A DNA stretch of 64,000 nucleotides from positions 25,078 through 89,077 of the forward strand of contig CACKYY010000002.1 of assembly GCA_902604525.1 (NCBI GenBank). Reading direction: 5' to 3'. The DNA is from an uncultured Pelagibacteraceae bacterium. GTDB lineage: Bacteria > Pseudomonadota > Alphaproteobacteria > Pelagibacterales > Pelagibacteraceae. The notes beneath the pieces were generated by a model. It was given only the letters and a program-made list of their open reading frames with translations, had not been told where the DNA came from and ran no database searches. This document shows positions 3,149 through 54,740 of the stretch, in pieces. Positions within the stretch are counted from its first letter, which is position 1; every line of letters begins with the position of its first letter. Both the position numbers and the translations under genes were made by a program.

Positions 3149-4450
3149 TTAGTCTCGTATTGCGTATGCTATTACACCAGTTTCGGTTACGTCAGTACCT
3201 TTGGATTCAGCCTCTTTACTTAATCTAATTCCAAACGTGGCCTTCATAACTGAGAACACGATATATGACACAACAAATACAAAAATGTTTATTGATAGCA
3301 CACCAACTACCTGTGCACTAAATGATGCATCAGTGTTTGTCAGTGGTACCGCAAGTGTTCCCCAAATTCCCGCAAACATGTGAGCTGGAATTGCACCTAC
3401 AACGTCGTCAAGTTTGAAACTGAACAATAATTTAGTTCCAAATACAACAAGTAAACCACCTACTGCTCCAATGAAAATTGCAGCTAGAGGTGTTGGTGCT
3501 AATGGTTCAGCAGTTACTGCAACTAATCCACCAATTGCTCCATTTAACATTTGCACAACATCTGTTTTACCGTACATTAATCTTGTTATTGTTGCTGCAG
3601 CCATTACACCACCACAAGCAGCAAGATTAGTATTAATAAAAATATTAGATACAGCAACTGCGTCAGCAAATGTTCCAATCGCTAATTGAGATCCTCCGTT
3701 GAACCCAAACCAACCTAACCATAGGATAAATACACCTATTGTTACTAATGGAATAGAAGATGCAGCAAAAGGTTTCATAGCTCTAGCTTCACCTTTACTG
3801 TCAAATCTTCCTGTACGCGAACCTAGCAACATTATCCCAGCTAGTGCTGCTGCACCACCTGTTGAGTGTACTAATGTTGAACCAGCGAAATCTGAGAAGC
3901 CAAGTTCTGCCAACCAGCCTCCACCCCACTGCCAACCCATTACTATTGGATAAATAATTCCTGCTAAAATTGCTGCGAATAGAAAGAACGGCCAAAGTTT
4001 AACTCTTTCAGCCATTGCTCCTGAACAAATTGAAACTGTTGTTGCACAGAAAACCATTTGGAAATACCAGTCAGAACCATCTGCATATCCAGTATCAACT
4101 GAACTTGCATCTGACCATGGAGTAAATGTTCCAATGTATCCACCTTCTGGGATTCCATACGCTAAGTTATATCCAAACAACCAAAACATTATTCCCGCAA
4201 TTGAATAAAGACCAATGTTCTTTGCACAAATTACCGAAACACTTTTTGAAGTTACCATACCAGATTCTAGCATCGCAAATCCTGCTGCCATAAACATGAC
4301 TAGGAAACCACAAATTAGAAATAGTAGTGAATTGAATATAGCTTGAACTTCAGCAGAAACAGTTGTTTCTGCCATTCCTGCACTACTCATGCTTAATAAA
4401 AATATTAAACTAAGAAGTGGCGCAGATATTCTTTTTATTAATTTAGTCAT
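3149..4450 (-). CDS. amtB: Ammonium transporter AmtB
   Basis: A 433-residue Amt/MEP/Rh channel that brings ammonium across the inner membrane. A cleavable signal peptide (about residues 1-27, ending GMAE) precedes eleven membrane helices. Family signatures are present: FAMLESGMV near residue 60, HSTGGAAALAG with the first pore histidine near 196, FGFNGGSQ near 249, and PAHMFAGIWGT with the second pore histidine near 355. The start is supported by a strong GTGGAGG site six bases before the ATG. In most alphaproteobacteria glnK sits directly beside amtB, but here the neighbours are bcp and an HU gene. A 17-base dyad 74 bases upstream is shared with glnA. Confidence 0.97.
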   Translation of the reverse strand: MTKLIKRISAPLLSLIFLLSMSSAGMAETTVSAEVQAIFNSLLFLICGFLVMFMAAGFAMLESGMVTSKSVSVICAKNIGLYSIAGIMFWLFGYNLAYGIPEGGYIGTFTPWSDASSVDTGYADGSDWYFQMVFCATTVSICSGAMAERVKLWPFFLFAAILAGIIYPIVMGWQWGGGWLAELGFSDFAGSTLVHSTGGAAALAGIMLLGSRTGRFDSKGEARAMKPFAASSIPLVTIGVFILWLGWFGFNGGSQLAIGTFADAVAVSNIFINTNLAACGGVMAAATITRLMYGKTDVVQMLNGAIGGLVAVTAEPLAPTPLAAIFIGAVGGLLVVFGTKLLFSFKLDDVVGAIPAHMFAGIWGTLAVPLTNTDASFSAQVVGVLSINIFVFVVSYIVFSVMKATFGIRLSKEAESKGTDVTETGVIAYAIRD

Positions 4451-4524: not shown

Positions 4525-4541
4525 TATGCGGTATTTGCATA
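4525..4541. promoter_or_regulatory. Dyad motif upstream of amtB, candidate nitrogen-response operator
   Basis: TATGCGGTATTTGCATA has 5-bp inverted arms (TATGC/GCATA) around 7 bases. It lies 74 bases before the amtB start. The site upstream of glnA (51895-51911) matches it at 13 of 17 positions at almost the same distance (77 bases). No regulator gene is in the window. The nitrogen role is inferred from the two genes sharing it. Confidence 0.5.
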
Positions 4542-44094: not shown

Positions 44095-44886
44095 ATGAGA
44101 AAAAATAAAATTAAACAAATGATGAATGAGGGAAAATCAGTCATCAATGGATGGCTTCAAATTCCAAGTACAGTTTCAGCAGAGGTTATGGCACATCAGG
44201 GATGGGATTCTCTTACAATTGATATGCAACATGGATTAGTCGATTACACTAACGCACTTCCAATGCTTCAAACTATATCTACTACCGATGTTACACCTCT
44301 TGCACGTGTAAACTGGAATGAACCTGGTCAAATTATGAAAATTCTAGACTCGGGTTGTTACGGCATAATTTGTCCAATGGTAAGCAATCGCAGTGAAGCC
44401 GAAAAATTTGTTAAAGCGTGCATGTACCCTCCTAATGGATATAGAAGTTTTGGTCCAGTTAGAGGTCTAATTTATGGTGGTGGAGATTATGCAGATCATG
44501 CAAATGATGAAATGCTTAAATTTGCAATGATTGAAACAAAAGAGTCTTTGGAAAAATTAGACGAAATAATGTCTACTCCAGGTTTGGATGGAATTTATAT
44601 TGGTCCTGCTGATTTAAGTCTGGCGATCGGTGAAGCCCCAGGTTTTGACAGACCCGCAGAGACAAAGGCATATTCTGAAATTTTAAGAATACTTGAGCAT
44701 GCAAAAAAAAATAATATTTTTTCTGGTATTCACAATGGTAGCCCAGAGTATGCTCTTAAAATGATTGATAAAGGTTTTAATTTTGTAACTATCGGTGCAG
44801 ATCAAAGAGCTATGAGCTCAGGCGCAAAAGCGATAGTAGATAAAATGAAAGGTTCTTTAAAAAAAGAAGAGTCGAGTACTTACTGA
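44095..44886 (+). CDS. HpcH/HpaI-type class II aldolase
   Basis: A 263-residue metal-dependent aldolase that splits 2-keto-3-deoxy or 4-hydroxy-2-oxo acids into pyruvate and an aldehyde. IDMQHGLVDY (catalytic His, about 45), LARVNWNEPGQIMKILDSGCYGI (substrate Arg), MIETKESLEKLDEI (metal Glu) and GIYIGPADLSLAIG (metal Asp) are all present. Relatives cleave 2-keto-3-deoxy-L-rhamnonate (RhmA) or 4-hydroxy-2-oxoheptanedioate. The adjacent aldehyde dehydrogenase suggests lactaldehyde or glycolaldehyde as product. Confidence 0.9.
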   Translation: MRKNKIKQMMNEGKSVINGWLQIPSTVSAEVMAHQGWDSLTIDMQHGLVDYTNALPMLQTISTTDVTPLARVNWNEPGQIMKILDSGCYGIICPMVSNRSEAEKFVKACMYPPNGYRSFGPVRGLIYGGGDYADHANDEMLKFAMIETKESLEKLDEIMSTPGLDGIYIGPADLSLAIGEAPGFDRPAETKAYSEILRILEHAKKNNIFSGIHNGSPEYALKMIDKGFNFVTIGADQRAMSSGAKAIVDKMKGSLKKEESSTY

Positions 44887-51372: not shown

Positions 51373-51851
51373 TCTGTTAAATCATCAACTTCTGAATTAG
51401 TTAATTTTTTTAGTTCAAAGAAGGTAATTCCAAAAACTGCATTTGGATGTCCTGCTGCAGCAAAAACTTTTGAAAATCTCTCTAAATGTTTATCCATATA
51501 TACTTTTGTATTTACTAAATGACCTATTGGAGATACGCCTCCTATTGTATAACCAGTAATTTGCTTAACCTCTTCGGGACTTGCCATTGACACATCTTTT
51601 TCACTTAATTTTTTTTTCAACTTATTTAAAGAGCATCTTTTGTCTCCCGATACTAAACAAAGACAAAATTTATTGCCTAATTTAAAAAGTAAGCTTTTTA
51701 CAATTGCACCAACATTACAACCTAAGGCTGTAGCAGCATCATTTGCTGTTCTTGCAGTTTGTTCTAAAATAATAACATTAAGATTTGGATCAAAGTCTTT
51801 AAGAATTTTCTTTGCTCTTTTAACTGGTTCTTTATCTAAAATGGAATTCAC
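51369..51851 (-). CDS. YbaK/EbsC-type aminoacyl-tRNA deacylase
   Basis: A 160-residue editing-domain protein that hydrolyses wrongly charged tRNA (Cys-tRNA-Pro, Ala-tRNA-Pro or similar). VGAIVKSLLFKLG with the catalytic Lys (about 49) and YTIGGVSPIGHLVNTKVYMD (GxxSP loop, about 100) are conserved. The start is GTG (51851), since no ATG lies upstream of the domain. The EamA gene follows with a 4-base overlap. Confidence 0.9.
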   Translation of the reverse strand: MNSILDKEPVKRAKKILKDFDPNLNVIILEQTARTANDAATALGCNVGAIVKSLLFKLGNKFCLCLVSGDKRCSLNKLKKKLSEKDVSMASPEEVKQITGYTIGGVSPIGHLVNTKVYMDKHLERFSKVFAAAGHPNAVFGITFFELKKLTNSEVDDLTE

Positions 51852-51891
51852 TTATTTATTCGTATGATTAATAATATTGATTAAATACACT

Positions 51892-51914
51892 ACTTATGTG
51901 AAAATTGCATAAGT
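51892..51914. promoter_or_regulatory. Dyad motif upstream of glnA, candidate nitrogen-response operator
   Basis: ACTTATG, nine bases, CATAAGT: perfect 7-bp arms. Its inner 17 bases TATGTGAAAATTGCATA match the amtB site (4525-4541) at 13 of 17 positions. It ends 74 bases before the glnA ATG, and the core ends 77 bases before. A TATAAG box at 51939-51944 puts the dyad near -48 of a possible start, a usual activator position. Confidence 0.5.
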
Positions 51915-51988
51915 GTTATTTATTAAATAAGCAATATTTATAAGTGTTTATTTGCTAATTAATGCTCTGAAATTACATAGGAGACATA

Positions 51989-53395
51989 ATGAGTGCAGAA
52001 AACGTTTTAAAATTTATTAAAGAAAAAGAAGCTGAATTCGTAGATTTAAGATTTACTGACCCAAGAGGAAAACTTCAACACTTAACAATGGACTCAACTG
52101 TTGTTGACGCAGATGTGCTTAATGAAGGTGTCTTTTTTGATGGATCATCTATTGCTGGTTGGAAAGCAATTAATGAGTCAGACATGATTTTAAAACCAGA
52201 TACATCTAGAATGTTTATGGATCCTTTTACTTCTCACAATACTGTAGTTTTGTTTTGTGATATTTTAGATGCAATTAAAAAAGATCCTTACGAAAGAGAC
52301 CCAAGGGGTGTGGCTAAAAAAGCTGAAGAATATTTAAAGGCTTCAGGTATTGGTGATAAAGCGTTCTTCGGTCCAGAACCAGAATTTTTTGTTTTTGATG
52401 ATGTAAGAATTAAAAACGACATGAATGAATGTGGATTTAAAATTGATAGCAAAGAGGGTCCCTATAATTCAGGAAAAGAATATGAAAGTGGAAACATGGG
52501 ACACAGACCACCAATCAAAGGTGGATACTTCCCAGTACCGCCAGTTGATAGTGAACAGGATATGCGTGGTGAATATCTAAAAAATTTAAAAGAAGTAGGA
52601 ATTAAAGTTGAAAAACATCACCATGAGGTTGCTCCAAGTCAGCACGAGCTTGGGATGTATTTTGGAACTTTAGTCAATCAGGCTGATAATGTTCAGTTAT
52701 ATAAATATGTTGTTCAAATGGTAACCCACTCGTTTGGCAAAACTGCAACTTTTATGCCTAAACCAGTAGCAGGAGATAATGGTTCTGGTATGCATATTCA
52801 CCAATCAATTTGGAAAGGTGATACGCCAGTTTTTTCTGGTGACGCTTATGCAGGATTATCTGAAACTGCGTTGCATTATATTGGTGGAATTTTAAAACAT
52901 GCTAAAGCTATTAATGCTTTTGCTAACTCTACTACAAATAGTTATAAAAGATTAATACCAGGTTTTGAAGCTCCAGTATTACTTGCATACTCTGCAAGAA
53001 ATAGATCAGCTTCATGTAGAATTCCTATTACCTTAAGTAAAAAAGGGGCAAGATGTGAAATTAGGTTCCCAGATGCATCTGGTAATCCATATTTAACATT
53101 TGCTGCTATGCTTATGGCCGGAATTGATGGTATTAAAAATAAAATTCACCCAGGTGAGTCTTTTGATAAAGATCTTTACGAATTACCACCAGAGGAAGTT
53201 AAAGCTATTCCAACAGTTTGTGGATCTTTGAGAGAAGCAATGGAAAGTTTAGATAAAGATAGAGAATTCTTAACTCAAGGTGGTGTGTTTACAGATGATC
53301 AAATTGATGCATACATTGCTCTTAAATTTGAGGAAATTCATAAATTTGAACATGCACCTCATCCTGTTGAGTTTGAGATGTATTACAGCAGTTAG
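51989..53395 (+). CDS. glnA: Type I glutamine synthetase
   Basis: A 468-residue GSI enzyme, dodecameric, making glutamine from glutamate, ammonia and [20 protein letters not shown] (about 48-64), [12 protein letters not shown] (metal Glu), [26 protein letters not shown] (ammonia site) and NSYKRLIPG with [11 protein letters not shown] are all present. DLYELPPEE near 397 keeps the adenylylation Tyr. RBS ATAGGAGACATA is strong. No glnB lies upstream as it would in most alphaproteobacteria. Confidence 0.97.
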
Positions 53396-53402
53396 TAATT
53401 AG

Positions 53403-53573
53403 TTACTGCTTAGTTGTAGCTATTGTATCTTTGTTAACACCTTTTTTAACAACGTAGTCCTGTGTCCCGTTGGCACCAGTGTCTACTTCTTTTCTGAGGT
53501 CCTTAAAAAATGATTTCTCTTTTAAAGAATTTTTTAAGTTTTTAACAAGATTTTTAAACTCAAATGTATTCAT
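53403..53573 (-). CDS. Small hypothetical protein, 56 residues (not in ORF track)
   Basis: An ATG at 53573 opens 56 codons ending TAA at 53403, eight bases from the glnA stop and convergent with it. The product is MNTFEFKNLVKNLKNSLKEK... followed by a hydrophilic part (RKEVDTGANGTQDYVVKKG). Codons such as GCC, GGG, CAG and GAC make it more GC-rich than spacer DNA here, which suggests constrained coding. A TTGCAT, 17 bases, TATGTC promoter with a tandem TATGCAAAT repeat lies just upstream. No family recognised. Confidence 0.55.
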   Translation of the reverse strand: MNTFEFKNLVKNLKNSLKEKSFFKDLRKEVDTGANGTQDYVVKKGVNKDTIATTKQ

Positions 53574-53592
53574 AACAGAGACATATCTTGAA

Positions 53593-53610
53593 TATGCAAA
53601 TTATGCAAAT
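53593..53610. repeat. Tandem TATGCAAAT repeat upstream of the 56-residue ORF
   Basis: TATGCAAAT occurs twice back to back (53593-53601, 53602-53610), then TATGC again after four bases. The same nine bases begin the amtB dyad on its coding strand. On the minus strand the repeat supplies a TTGCAT -35 box for the small ORF. It may be a regulatory site or coincidence. Confidence 0.4.
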
Positions 53611-53638
53611 CTGGTATGCTCAAAATGGGATTGTTGAC

Positions 53639-53974
53639 CTATGATGTTTTAAATGACTCTCCACAACCACAACGCTCGGTTTCATTAGGATTATTAAAAA
53701 CAAAAGTTGAAGACAATTCTTCTTTCTTATAATCCATTTCAGTTCCCAAAAGATACATAATAGCAGCAGAGTCTACGAATACCTTCACACCCTTATCTTC
53801 AATTATTTCATCATTTGGATTAACTTCTTTTGTATATTCCATAACATAAGACATTCCTGCACAACCACCAGATTTAACTGATACTCTTACTCCAAGAGAA
53901 TCTTTTTCTGCATTAGCCATTATCTCTTTAATTCGAGTTGCAGCGTTATCACTTAATTTAATTATTTGAGTCAT
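53639..53974 (-). CDS. sufA: A-type Fe-S cluster carrier SufA
   Basis: A 111-residue HesB/IscA-fold protein that carries Fe-S clusters to targets. The three cluster cysteines are in SGGCAGMSY (about 37) and ERCGCGESF (about 102 and 104). SLGVRVSVKSGGC is typical. It is last in the suf operon, overlapping sufT by one base. Confidence 0.93.
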   Translation of the reverse strand: MTQIIKLSDNAATRIKEIMANAEKDSLGVRVSVKSGGCAGMSYVMEYTKEVNPNDEIIEDKGVKVFVDSAAIMYLLGTEMDYKKEELSSTFVFNNPNETERCGCGESFKTS

Positions 53975-54273
53975 TATAAATTCAATTCCAATTTAGCTGC
54001 CTCAGACATCATGTCTTTGGTCCATGGTGGATCCCATACCAATTCTAAATCAACTTCTTCAATTCCCTCTACTTGCATTGCGCCCTCTTTAACTTCTTTA
54101 GGTAAACTTTCAGCTACAGGGCAATTTGGTGTTGTCAAAGTCATTTTAATTTTAGCTGATTTTTCATTTTCAACAATTATATCATAAATTAAACCTAGTT
54201 CATAAATATTAACAGGTAACTCAGGGTCATAAATTTTTCTAATTTCCTCTATGATTAGTTCTTTTTTTGACAT
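53974..54273 (-). CDS. sufT: SufT/MIP18-like DUF59 protein
   Basis: A 99-residue DUF59 protein that helps cluster maturation. IYDPELPVNIYELGLIYDI (about 14-32) and TTPNCPVAESLPKEV with the single conserved Cys are family marks. It is a compact single-domain version. It lies between the SufU-like and SufA genes, spaced by 2 bases and overlapping by 1. Confidence 0.92.
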   Translation of the reverse strand: MSKKELIIEEIRKIYDPELPVNIYELGLIYDIIVENEKSAKIKMTLTTPNCPVAESLPKEVKEGAMQVEGIEEVDLELVWDPPWTKDMMSEAAKLELNL

Positions 54274-54275
54274 AA

Positions 54276-54740
54276 TTAATTCTCTGTTTTTACTTCTTCT
54301 TTTTTATCATCAAATGCTGAAACCAAAGTATGCCATGAAAGTGTAGCACACTTTACTCTCATTGGATATTGTTTAACACCTGACAAGCACATTAATTTAG
54401 TTTTTTCATCTTCCTGTAAATATTCTGATTTTAATTCTGGATTTTCTTTAATCATTCCTAAAAAATCTTCTACGATTTCTTTAGCTTCATTTTCATTTTT
54501 ACCTTTAATTAGATCTGTCATGATTGAGGCTGATGCCATTGAGATAGCACAACCACTTCCTTCAAATGAAATATCTTCAACTATTTTTTGACCATTTAAT
54601 TTTAAATAAACATGAACATTATCACCACATAAAGGATTGTTACCTTTTGCATCTTTATTAAAGTCATCTGTCTTTCCATGATTTCTTGGATTTTTTCCAT
54701 GCTCTAAAATAATTTCTTGATATAATTCTTTTAAATTCAT
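54276..54740 (-). CDS. sufU: SufU/IscU-type Fe-S scaffold protein
   Basis: A 154-residue U-type protein. Cys residues lie in NPLCGDNV (about 38), GSGCAISMASAS (about 63) and MRVKCATLSWHTL (about 131), with Asp40 between. The inserted stretch of about 20 residues before the last cysteine and the KCATLSW ending are those of SufU rather than IscU. SufU takes sulfur from SufS through zinc. Its start overlaps sufS by 4 bases. Confidence 0.9.
   Translation of the reverse strand: MNLKELYQEIILEHGKNPRNHGKTDDFNKDAKGNNPLCGDNVHVYLKLNGQKIVEDISFEGSGCAISMASASIMTDLIKGKNENEAKEIVEDFLGMIKENPELKSEYLQEDEKTKLMCLSGVKQYPMRVKCATLSWHTLVSAFDDKKEEVKTEN

Follow-up and report, generated by a model that had tools for sequence, protein, structure and literature searches.

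Beside the glutamine synthetase gene glnA of an uncultured Pelagibacteraceae bacterium lies a short open reading frame, and the locus raises the question of whether this frame is a gene and what its product does. The window analysed here is the whole stretch of 64,000 nucleotides. A 56-codon frame converging on glnA had been proposed by a sequence-only reading of the window and was found as described. The features of the locus are as follows.

51989-53395, + strand: glnA, glutamine synthetase (Pfam PF00120/PF03951), convergent with the small gene
53403-53573, - strand: small gene, 56 codons from ATG, product MNTFEFKNLVKNLKNSLKEKSFFKDLRKEVDTGANGTQDYVVKKGVNKDTIATTKQ (56 aa, predicted pI 9.7)
53639-53974, - strand: sufA-like Fe-S gene (Pfam PF01521), end of the suf operon, with a gap of 65 nt to the small gene downstream

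The frame is short and unlisted, as would be expected of a chance frame in an intergenic spacer. A search with its single sequence detected a family member in 156 of 297 genomes of Pelagibacteraceae, and a profile search found the family in 174 of 247 genomes of the SAR11 order (126 of 149 if only high-quality genomes are counted). Outside the order, no match was found in two alphaproteobacterial genome sets of about 380 and about 373 genomes. The median dN/dS over 94 distinct copies of 56 codons came to 0.05, which is strong purifying selection, and codon position 3 is about twelve times as variable as position 2. The sequence-only reading had named lack of conservation, or stops in relatives, as grounds for giving the frame up. 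Neither occurred, and the matches listed by the one-sequence search hold no internal stop codon. Conservation across the order and in phages together with the low dN/dS refutes a chance frame, which retains practically no probability. On this evidence the frame is a real, overlooked gene for a SAR11-specific basic small protein. Some good Pelagibacter genomes (G105, G152, G220, G238, G256 and others) have no detectable family member.

Members of the family were distinguished into two types. In type A, situated beside glnA, the order of suf genes, sufA, small gene and convergent glnA is constant in every case where glnA is in reach. SufA and the small gene are usually separated by 65-66 nt, and the stop codons of the small gene and glnA are mostly 0-11 nt apart. 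Type B is divergent, has 62-70 aa with the motif ..ANGTSGYxVKxGxNKGKVLxH, and occupies other places away from glnA, both in other genera and in part of the Pelagibacter genomes. As the gene is codirectional with sufA and follows it by about 65 nt in nearly all glnA-side copies, it might belong to the suf operon as its final gene, with a role in Fe-S cluster assembly. The small gene has its own conserved promoter, however, and other genera keep it away from suf under nitrogen-linked leaders. A role in Fe-S assembly was dropped because the type-B copies lie elsewhere, and we regard it as very improbable.

The family proteins range from 54 to 70 aa with pI 9.7-10.9. Residues G36, T37, Y40, K43 and G45 are invariant in both types, and the conserved basic positions are mostly lysine. 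No family of Pfam or NCBIfam covers the small protein. A Pfam scan of 17 members gave no family shared by more than one of them (best E 0.014, unrelated), and relatives among solved structures were just designed or unrelated chains with poor E-values. The AlphaFold model has a fairly confident helix at residues 3-26 and low confidence in the remainder (mean pLDDT 69.8, pTM 0.33). A possible likeness to ArfA, a ribosome-rescue factor, was given up as no Pfam match was obtained. The protein is matched by the profile phrog_32989 of PHROGs (E 3.8e-14), to which all 17 of the 17 scanned members also match (best E 3.3e-34). PHROGs records it as a phage family without assigned function, whereas in SAR11 it also occurs as a host gene under nitrogen-linked control.

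The region upstream of the small gene contains the following elements.

53580-53585, - strand: position of the -10 box, TATGTC here and TATAGA/TATATA in most relatives, 6 nt before ATG
53593-53607, - strand: operator TGCA-N5-TGCATA, which covers the -35 box and the spacer; its opposite strand is the tandem TATGCAAAT
53603-53608, - strand: -35 box TTGCAT, separated by 17 nt from the -10 position, 75-99% conserved per column
53613-53619, - strand: GCATACC, an upstream half-site that reads GCATANC in relatives, at a distance of 22 bp from the second GCATA

The nine bases TATGCAAAT, reported to be repeated back to back, do stand at 53593-53601 and 53602-53610 (+) and read ATTTGCATAATTTGCATA on the strand of the gene. 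By base counts the nonamer is not enriched, with 4 occurrences in the window vs 2.24 expected, and 22 of 100 shuffles reach 4. The perfect 18-mer formed by the tandem is no more than suggestive when set against chance. The repeat block is more than chance because it is kept in 89 distinct upstream sequences. Alignment of these 89 type-A upstreams at the ATG revealed GCATANC at -46, TTGCAT at -35, TGCATANCTA at -25 and TA at -12/-11, and the half-site positions -46 to -40 are 91-96% conserved except for one free column. The exact nine-base tandem is specific to the lineage of the window and most relatives read ATTGCATTATATGCATATC, so that the conserved core is TGCA-N5-TGCATA within a promoter. 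From this pattern the type-A block is recognised as a sigma-70-like promoter with a 17-nt spacer and a -10 box ending 6 nt before the ATG. In the window itself the -10 box is poor, and a simple promoter scan left the promoter uncalled. No ribosome-binding site was found before the ATG, and this absence together with the short distance from the -10 box indicates that the mRNA is probably leaderless. The sequence at 44488-44512, TATGCAGATCATGCAAAT, is a second near-match, differing from the tandem repeat by 2 mismatches.

The same operator was found at two other genes of nitrogen assimilation in the window.

3149-4450, - strand: amtB, ammonium transporter, with orthologues in relatives
4525-4541, - strand: amtB operator TATGCAAATACCGCATA, of the class TATGCA-N5-TGCATA, lying some 75-90 nt ahead of the start codon
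51895-51911, + strand: degenerate operator TATGTG-N5-TGCATA upstream of glnA

SAR11 is described as having only sigma-70 and sigma-32, with NtrY/NtrX among its four two-component systems (PMC13198564). The motif of the repeat had also been noticed in a dyad at amtB, and this dyad is the amtB operator listed above. The amtB upstreams of relatives keep TATGCA-N5-TGCATA followed by C(C/T). Operator searches were pattern scans, and the reversed pattern served as control. TGCA-N5-TGCATANC was sought in eight Pelagibacter genomes and has 20 exact matches there vs 0 for the reversed control. Ten of these fall within unrelated genes. The other ten are intergenic, and each of them stands before amtB (7) or the small gene (3) in the coding direction. 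TATG-N7-TGCATA occurs in 78 of 78 distinct glnA upstreams, and in 75 of them it is located 92-95 nt before the start. Conservation of the operator at amtB, glnA and the small gene supports the earlier conjecture of a nitrogen site. The 17-bp dyad geometry resembles that of NtrC-type sites. Since the dyad is NtrC-like and SAR11 possesses NtrY/NtrX with only two sigma factors, NtrX is the likely binder. The operator is upstream at amtB and glnA and over the promoter core at the small gene, a difference in position which suggests opposite control of the two. One regulator, probably NtrX, would bind under nitrogen limitation, activate amtB and glnA from a site that precedes their starts by about 90 nt, and repress the small gene from a site over its -35 box and spacer.

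Type-B copies have leaders of other kinds. In genus g12 the type 1 glutamine riboswitch RF01739, the glnA RNA, lies directly upstream of the type-B gene (L164, L165), with 60.2 bits vs an Rfam gathering threshold of 35. Only these 2 matches to RF01739 were found among 247 SAR11-order genomes, both before the small-gene family, and it may be a single acquisition because both genomes belong to one genus. Together with the shared operator, this riboswitch strengthens the earlier guess that the small protein is part of the nitrogen response. The other type-B leader reads CCAU-UUCAC-AUGG-UUAAAAAGUG-N-CCGAU-CUAC-AUCGG-UUAAAAGUAG, that is, two hairpins in tandem, in each of which the loop pairs with the bases that follow. 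Across 13 sequences all pairs form, and in 6 of the 16 both partners change vs 0 for slid controls, the changes reflecting few lineages. No Rfam family matched this leader at E up to 1. A model of it (R1) found exactly one copy in each of 40 of 297 genomes, and on reading all 40 loci 38 were found to precede a type-B gene. With covariation in both pseudoknots, this leader is a candidate new riboswitch. Genus g5 copies have an operator-like sequence in place of the RNA leader. Hence a single gene has controls of three kinds that can stand in for one another, of which two are plainly nitrogen-linked, and on the sequence evidence nitrogen control of the small gene is very probable. The second type of glutamine riboswitch (Downstream-peptide, RF01704) likewise precedes short orphan ORFs in picocyanobacteria. 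The SAR11 case differs in that the commoner leader is the tandem pseudoknot, and that the copy in the window has no RNA leader. At the latter no Rfam match was obtained, in 51800-54300 or in the whole window, and a riboswitch or other known RNA was ruled out there.

Tandem-pseudoknot loci are L166-L171, L176-L178, L183-L192, L195, L197 and L255-L293. In genus g9 (L285 about 2017-2250, L286 about 2023-2250) the leader precedes a different basic protein of 48 aa, MFYKDFxLLRK...RPRAKxNVINPxQKGI, and no family member was found in these two genomes. L171 also contains repeated GGGGCACCTGGCAACAGAACGCCCC hairpins (3461-3574 and 1615-1688) with a below-threshold likeness to part of alpha_tmRNA, one of them at the 3' end of the type-B gene.

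What such a nitrogen-controlled protein would act on was considered against the known controls of glutamine synthetase (GS). PII was detected in none of the 25 Pelagibacter-genus genomes searched (many incomplete, four at 90% or more) and in 15 of 16 sister-family genomes. GlnE was found in none of 41 genomes searched. Controls were positive in both searches. GlnA retains a tyrosine in DLYELPPEE, the segment bearing the adenylylated tyrosine in E. coli. The nitrogen response of SAR11 is described as PII-independent in the title of a 2013 paper by Smith et al. (cited in PMC13198564). The sequence-only reading had suggested a regulator in place of PII. The absence of PII from 25 of 25 Pelagibacter agrees with this, and a role in nitrogen control would presumably be common to the small protein and PII or GlnK. 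The fit is only partial. Two sister-family genomes (G298, G299) have both PII and a family member, so the small protein is not simply a PII substitute. It is also half the size of PII and unrelated in sequence, with no match to the PII profile (PF00543) or to any other Pfam entry.

Under nitrogen control, its target could be AmtB, as with GlnK elsewhere, or the regulator NtrY/NtrX itself, as PipX acts with NtcA. The operator common to amtB and the small gene fits such a target, Pelagibacter has no PII to gate AmtB, and several genera have copies away from glnA. Yet the conserved neighbour is glnA and not amtB, the two PII-bearing genomes also have a family member, and the precedent for a glutamine riboswitch before such a gene is a GS inhibitor. 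We consider AmtB or NtrY/NtrX rather unlikely as the target.

The precedent comes from cyanobacteria, where NtcA represses gifA/gifB under limitation, gifB carries a glutamine riboswitch, and the products (IF7/IF17) are small basic proteins which inhibit GS and are made under nitrogen excess (PMC7760959, PMC6316151). The SAR11 family is similar in being small and basic, in its probably nitrogen-regulated promoter, in the glutamine riboswitch upstream in some lineages, and in occurring in organisms whose GS is not adenylylated. It differs in being alphaproteobacterial and viral. No DUF4278 match was found in 17 members, and this Pfam-based comparison detected no sequence relation. Three arginines of IF7 are essential for GS binding, whereas the invariant charged residues of the SAR11 family are lysines, and GS binding here is a conjecture. 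The SAR11 protein would work like a GS inactivating factor, and kinship is not claimed.

The operator shared with amtB and glnA, the glutamine-sensing RNA in relatives and carriage by viruses indicate that the small gene probably tunes nitrogen assimilation. As the control logic is that of the cyanobacterial factors and the gene adjoins glnA, the small protein was read as one that restrains GS. In the full proposal its level would be set by nitrogen status, it would act on nitrogen assimilation, and it would most likely bind and restrain GS when nitrogen is plentiful. We judge this proposal about evenly balanced. The same holds for GS as the target, to which position and regulation point. That the action is inhibitory, as the cyanobacterial parallel would have it, we hold with slightly less assurance. 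Glutamine would switch the gene on via the riboswitch, and the protein would be made when nitrogen or glutamine is plentiful. An N-terminal helix would be followed by the conserved KxV..ANGT..Y.VKxG.NKGK segment, which would contact GS. Against GS as the target, the gene is away from glnA in several genera, some genomes of the genus are without a detectable copy, and PII is present too in genomes of the sister family.

The family is also encoded in 25 phage records, of which two are duplicate entries of phages already counted. The carriers include Autographiviridae such as HTVC019P, as well as HTVC027P, Kolga (EXVC016S) and the T4-like HTVC008M. In IMG/VR at least 436 stretches encode the family. 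In the phages inspected the copies are mostly near terminase, capsid or baseplate genes. A simple pattern search of 116 viral loci detected neither the host operator nor the glutamine riboswitch at ordinary phage copies, which are without a host leader. The exceptions are the viral contigs L294-L296, where a type-B copy lies behind the tandem-pseudoknot leader. L294 also has the exact TATGCA-N5-TGCATA operator, and in L295 helicase, primase and phage polymerase genes are close to the type-B copy. A small tree separated types A and B with phage members in each, its deeper branching being weak, and at least two transfers are indicated because each type has phage members.

The location among phage genes, and the nesting of the host glnA-side copies within phage diversity in this weakly supported tree, could mean that a phage protein of host takeover or morphogenesis was domesticated by SAR11. 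Nitrogen control would then have come later, and the target would lie outside nitrogen metabolism (e.g. ribosome, RNA polymerase, head assembly). The second host clade, type B, has its own viral relatives and is nevertheless under nitrogen-linked leaders, and several kinds of nitrogen-linked control are hard to explain for a non-nitrogen function. We consider such an origin and target unlikely.

Returning to a GS-restraining protein, most phages have taken the gene in among genes of their own and left off the host operator and leader, presumably so that nitrogen flow is set whatever the state of the host. Host glnA, gltBD and amt transcripts rise on infection by HTVC027P, a carrier of the family, but also on infection by HTVC022P (PMC12753301). 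Cyanophage CP12 offers a likeness, as a small host protein inhibiting a key host pathway of which phages carry a copy (PMC7760959), although pathway and protein are different and enzyme inhibition is here a proposal. The benefit of a GS inhibitor to a phage is not obvious. As a tentative wider picture, possible and short of probable, GS of SAR11 would be controlled without PII or adenylylation by a lineage-specific small inhibitor. Its switch would have been repeatedly exchanged among an NtrX-type operator, the glutamine riboswitch and a new tandem-pseudoknot riboswitch sensing glutamine or nitrogen status. Unrelated pelagiphages would carry the inhibitor mostly free of host control and seize nitrogen flow in infection. 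SAR11 ranks with the ocean's most abundant bacterial groups, and its GS control lacks PII and GlnE in the Pelagibacter searched. The small gene with its operator and leaders is a concrete, testable candidate for that control. It also yields a candidate new regulatory RNA and gives phrog_32989 a function to test.

Two further observations concern individual viral loci. L295 further encodes FTR1, TauD and DctP-like proteins. In HTVC008M (L143:3450-3600) the family member lies between the DNA end protector and baseplate genes and is unannotated in the record.
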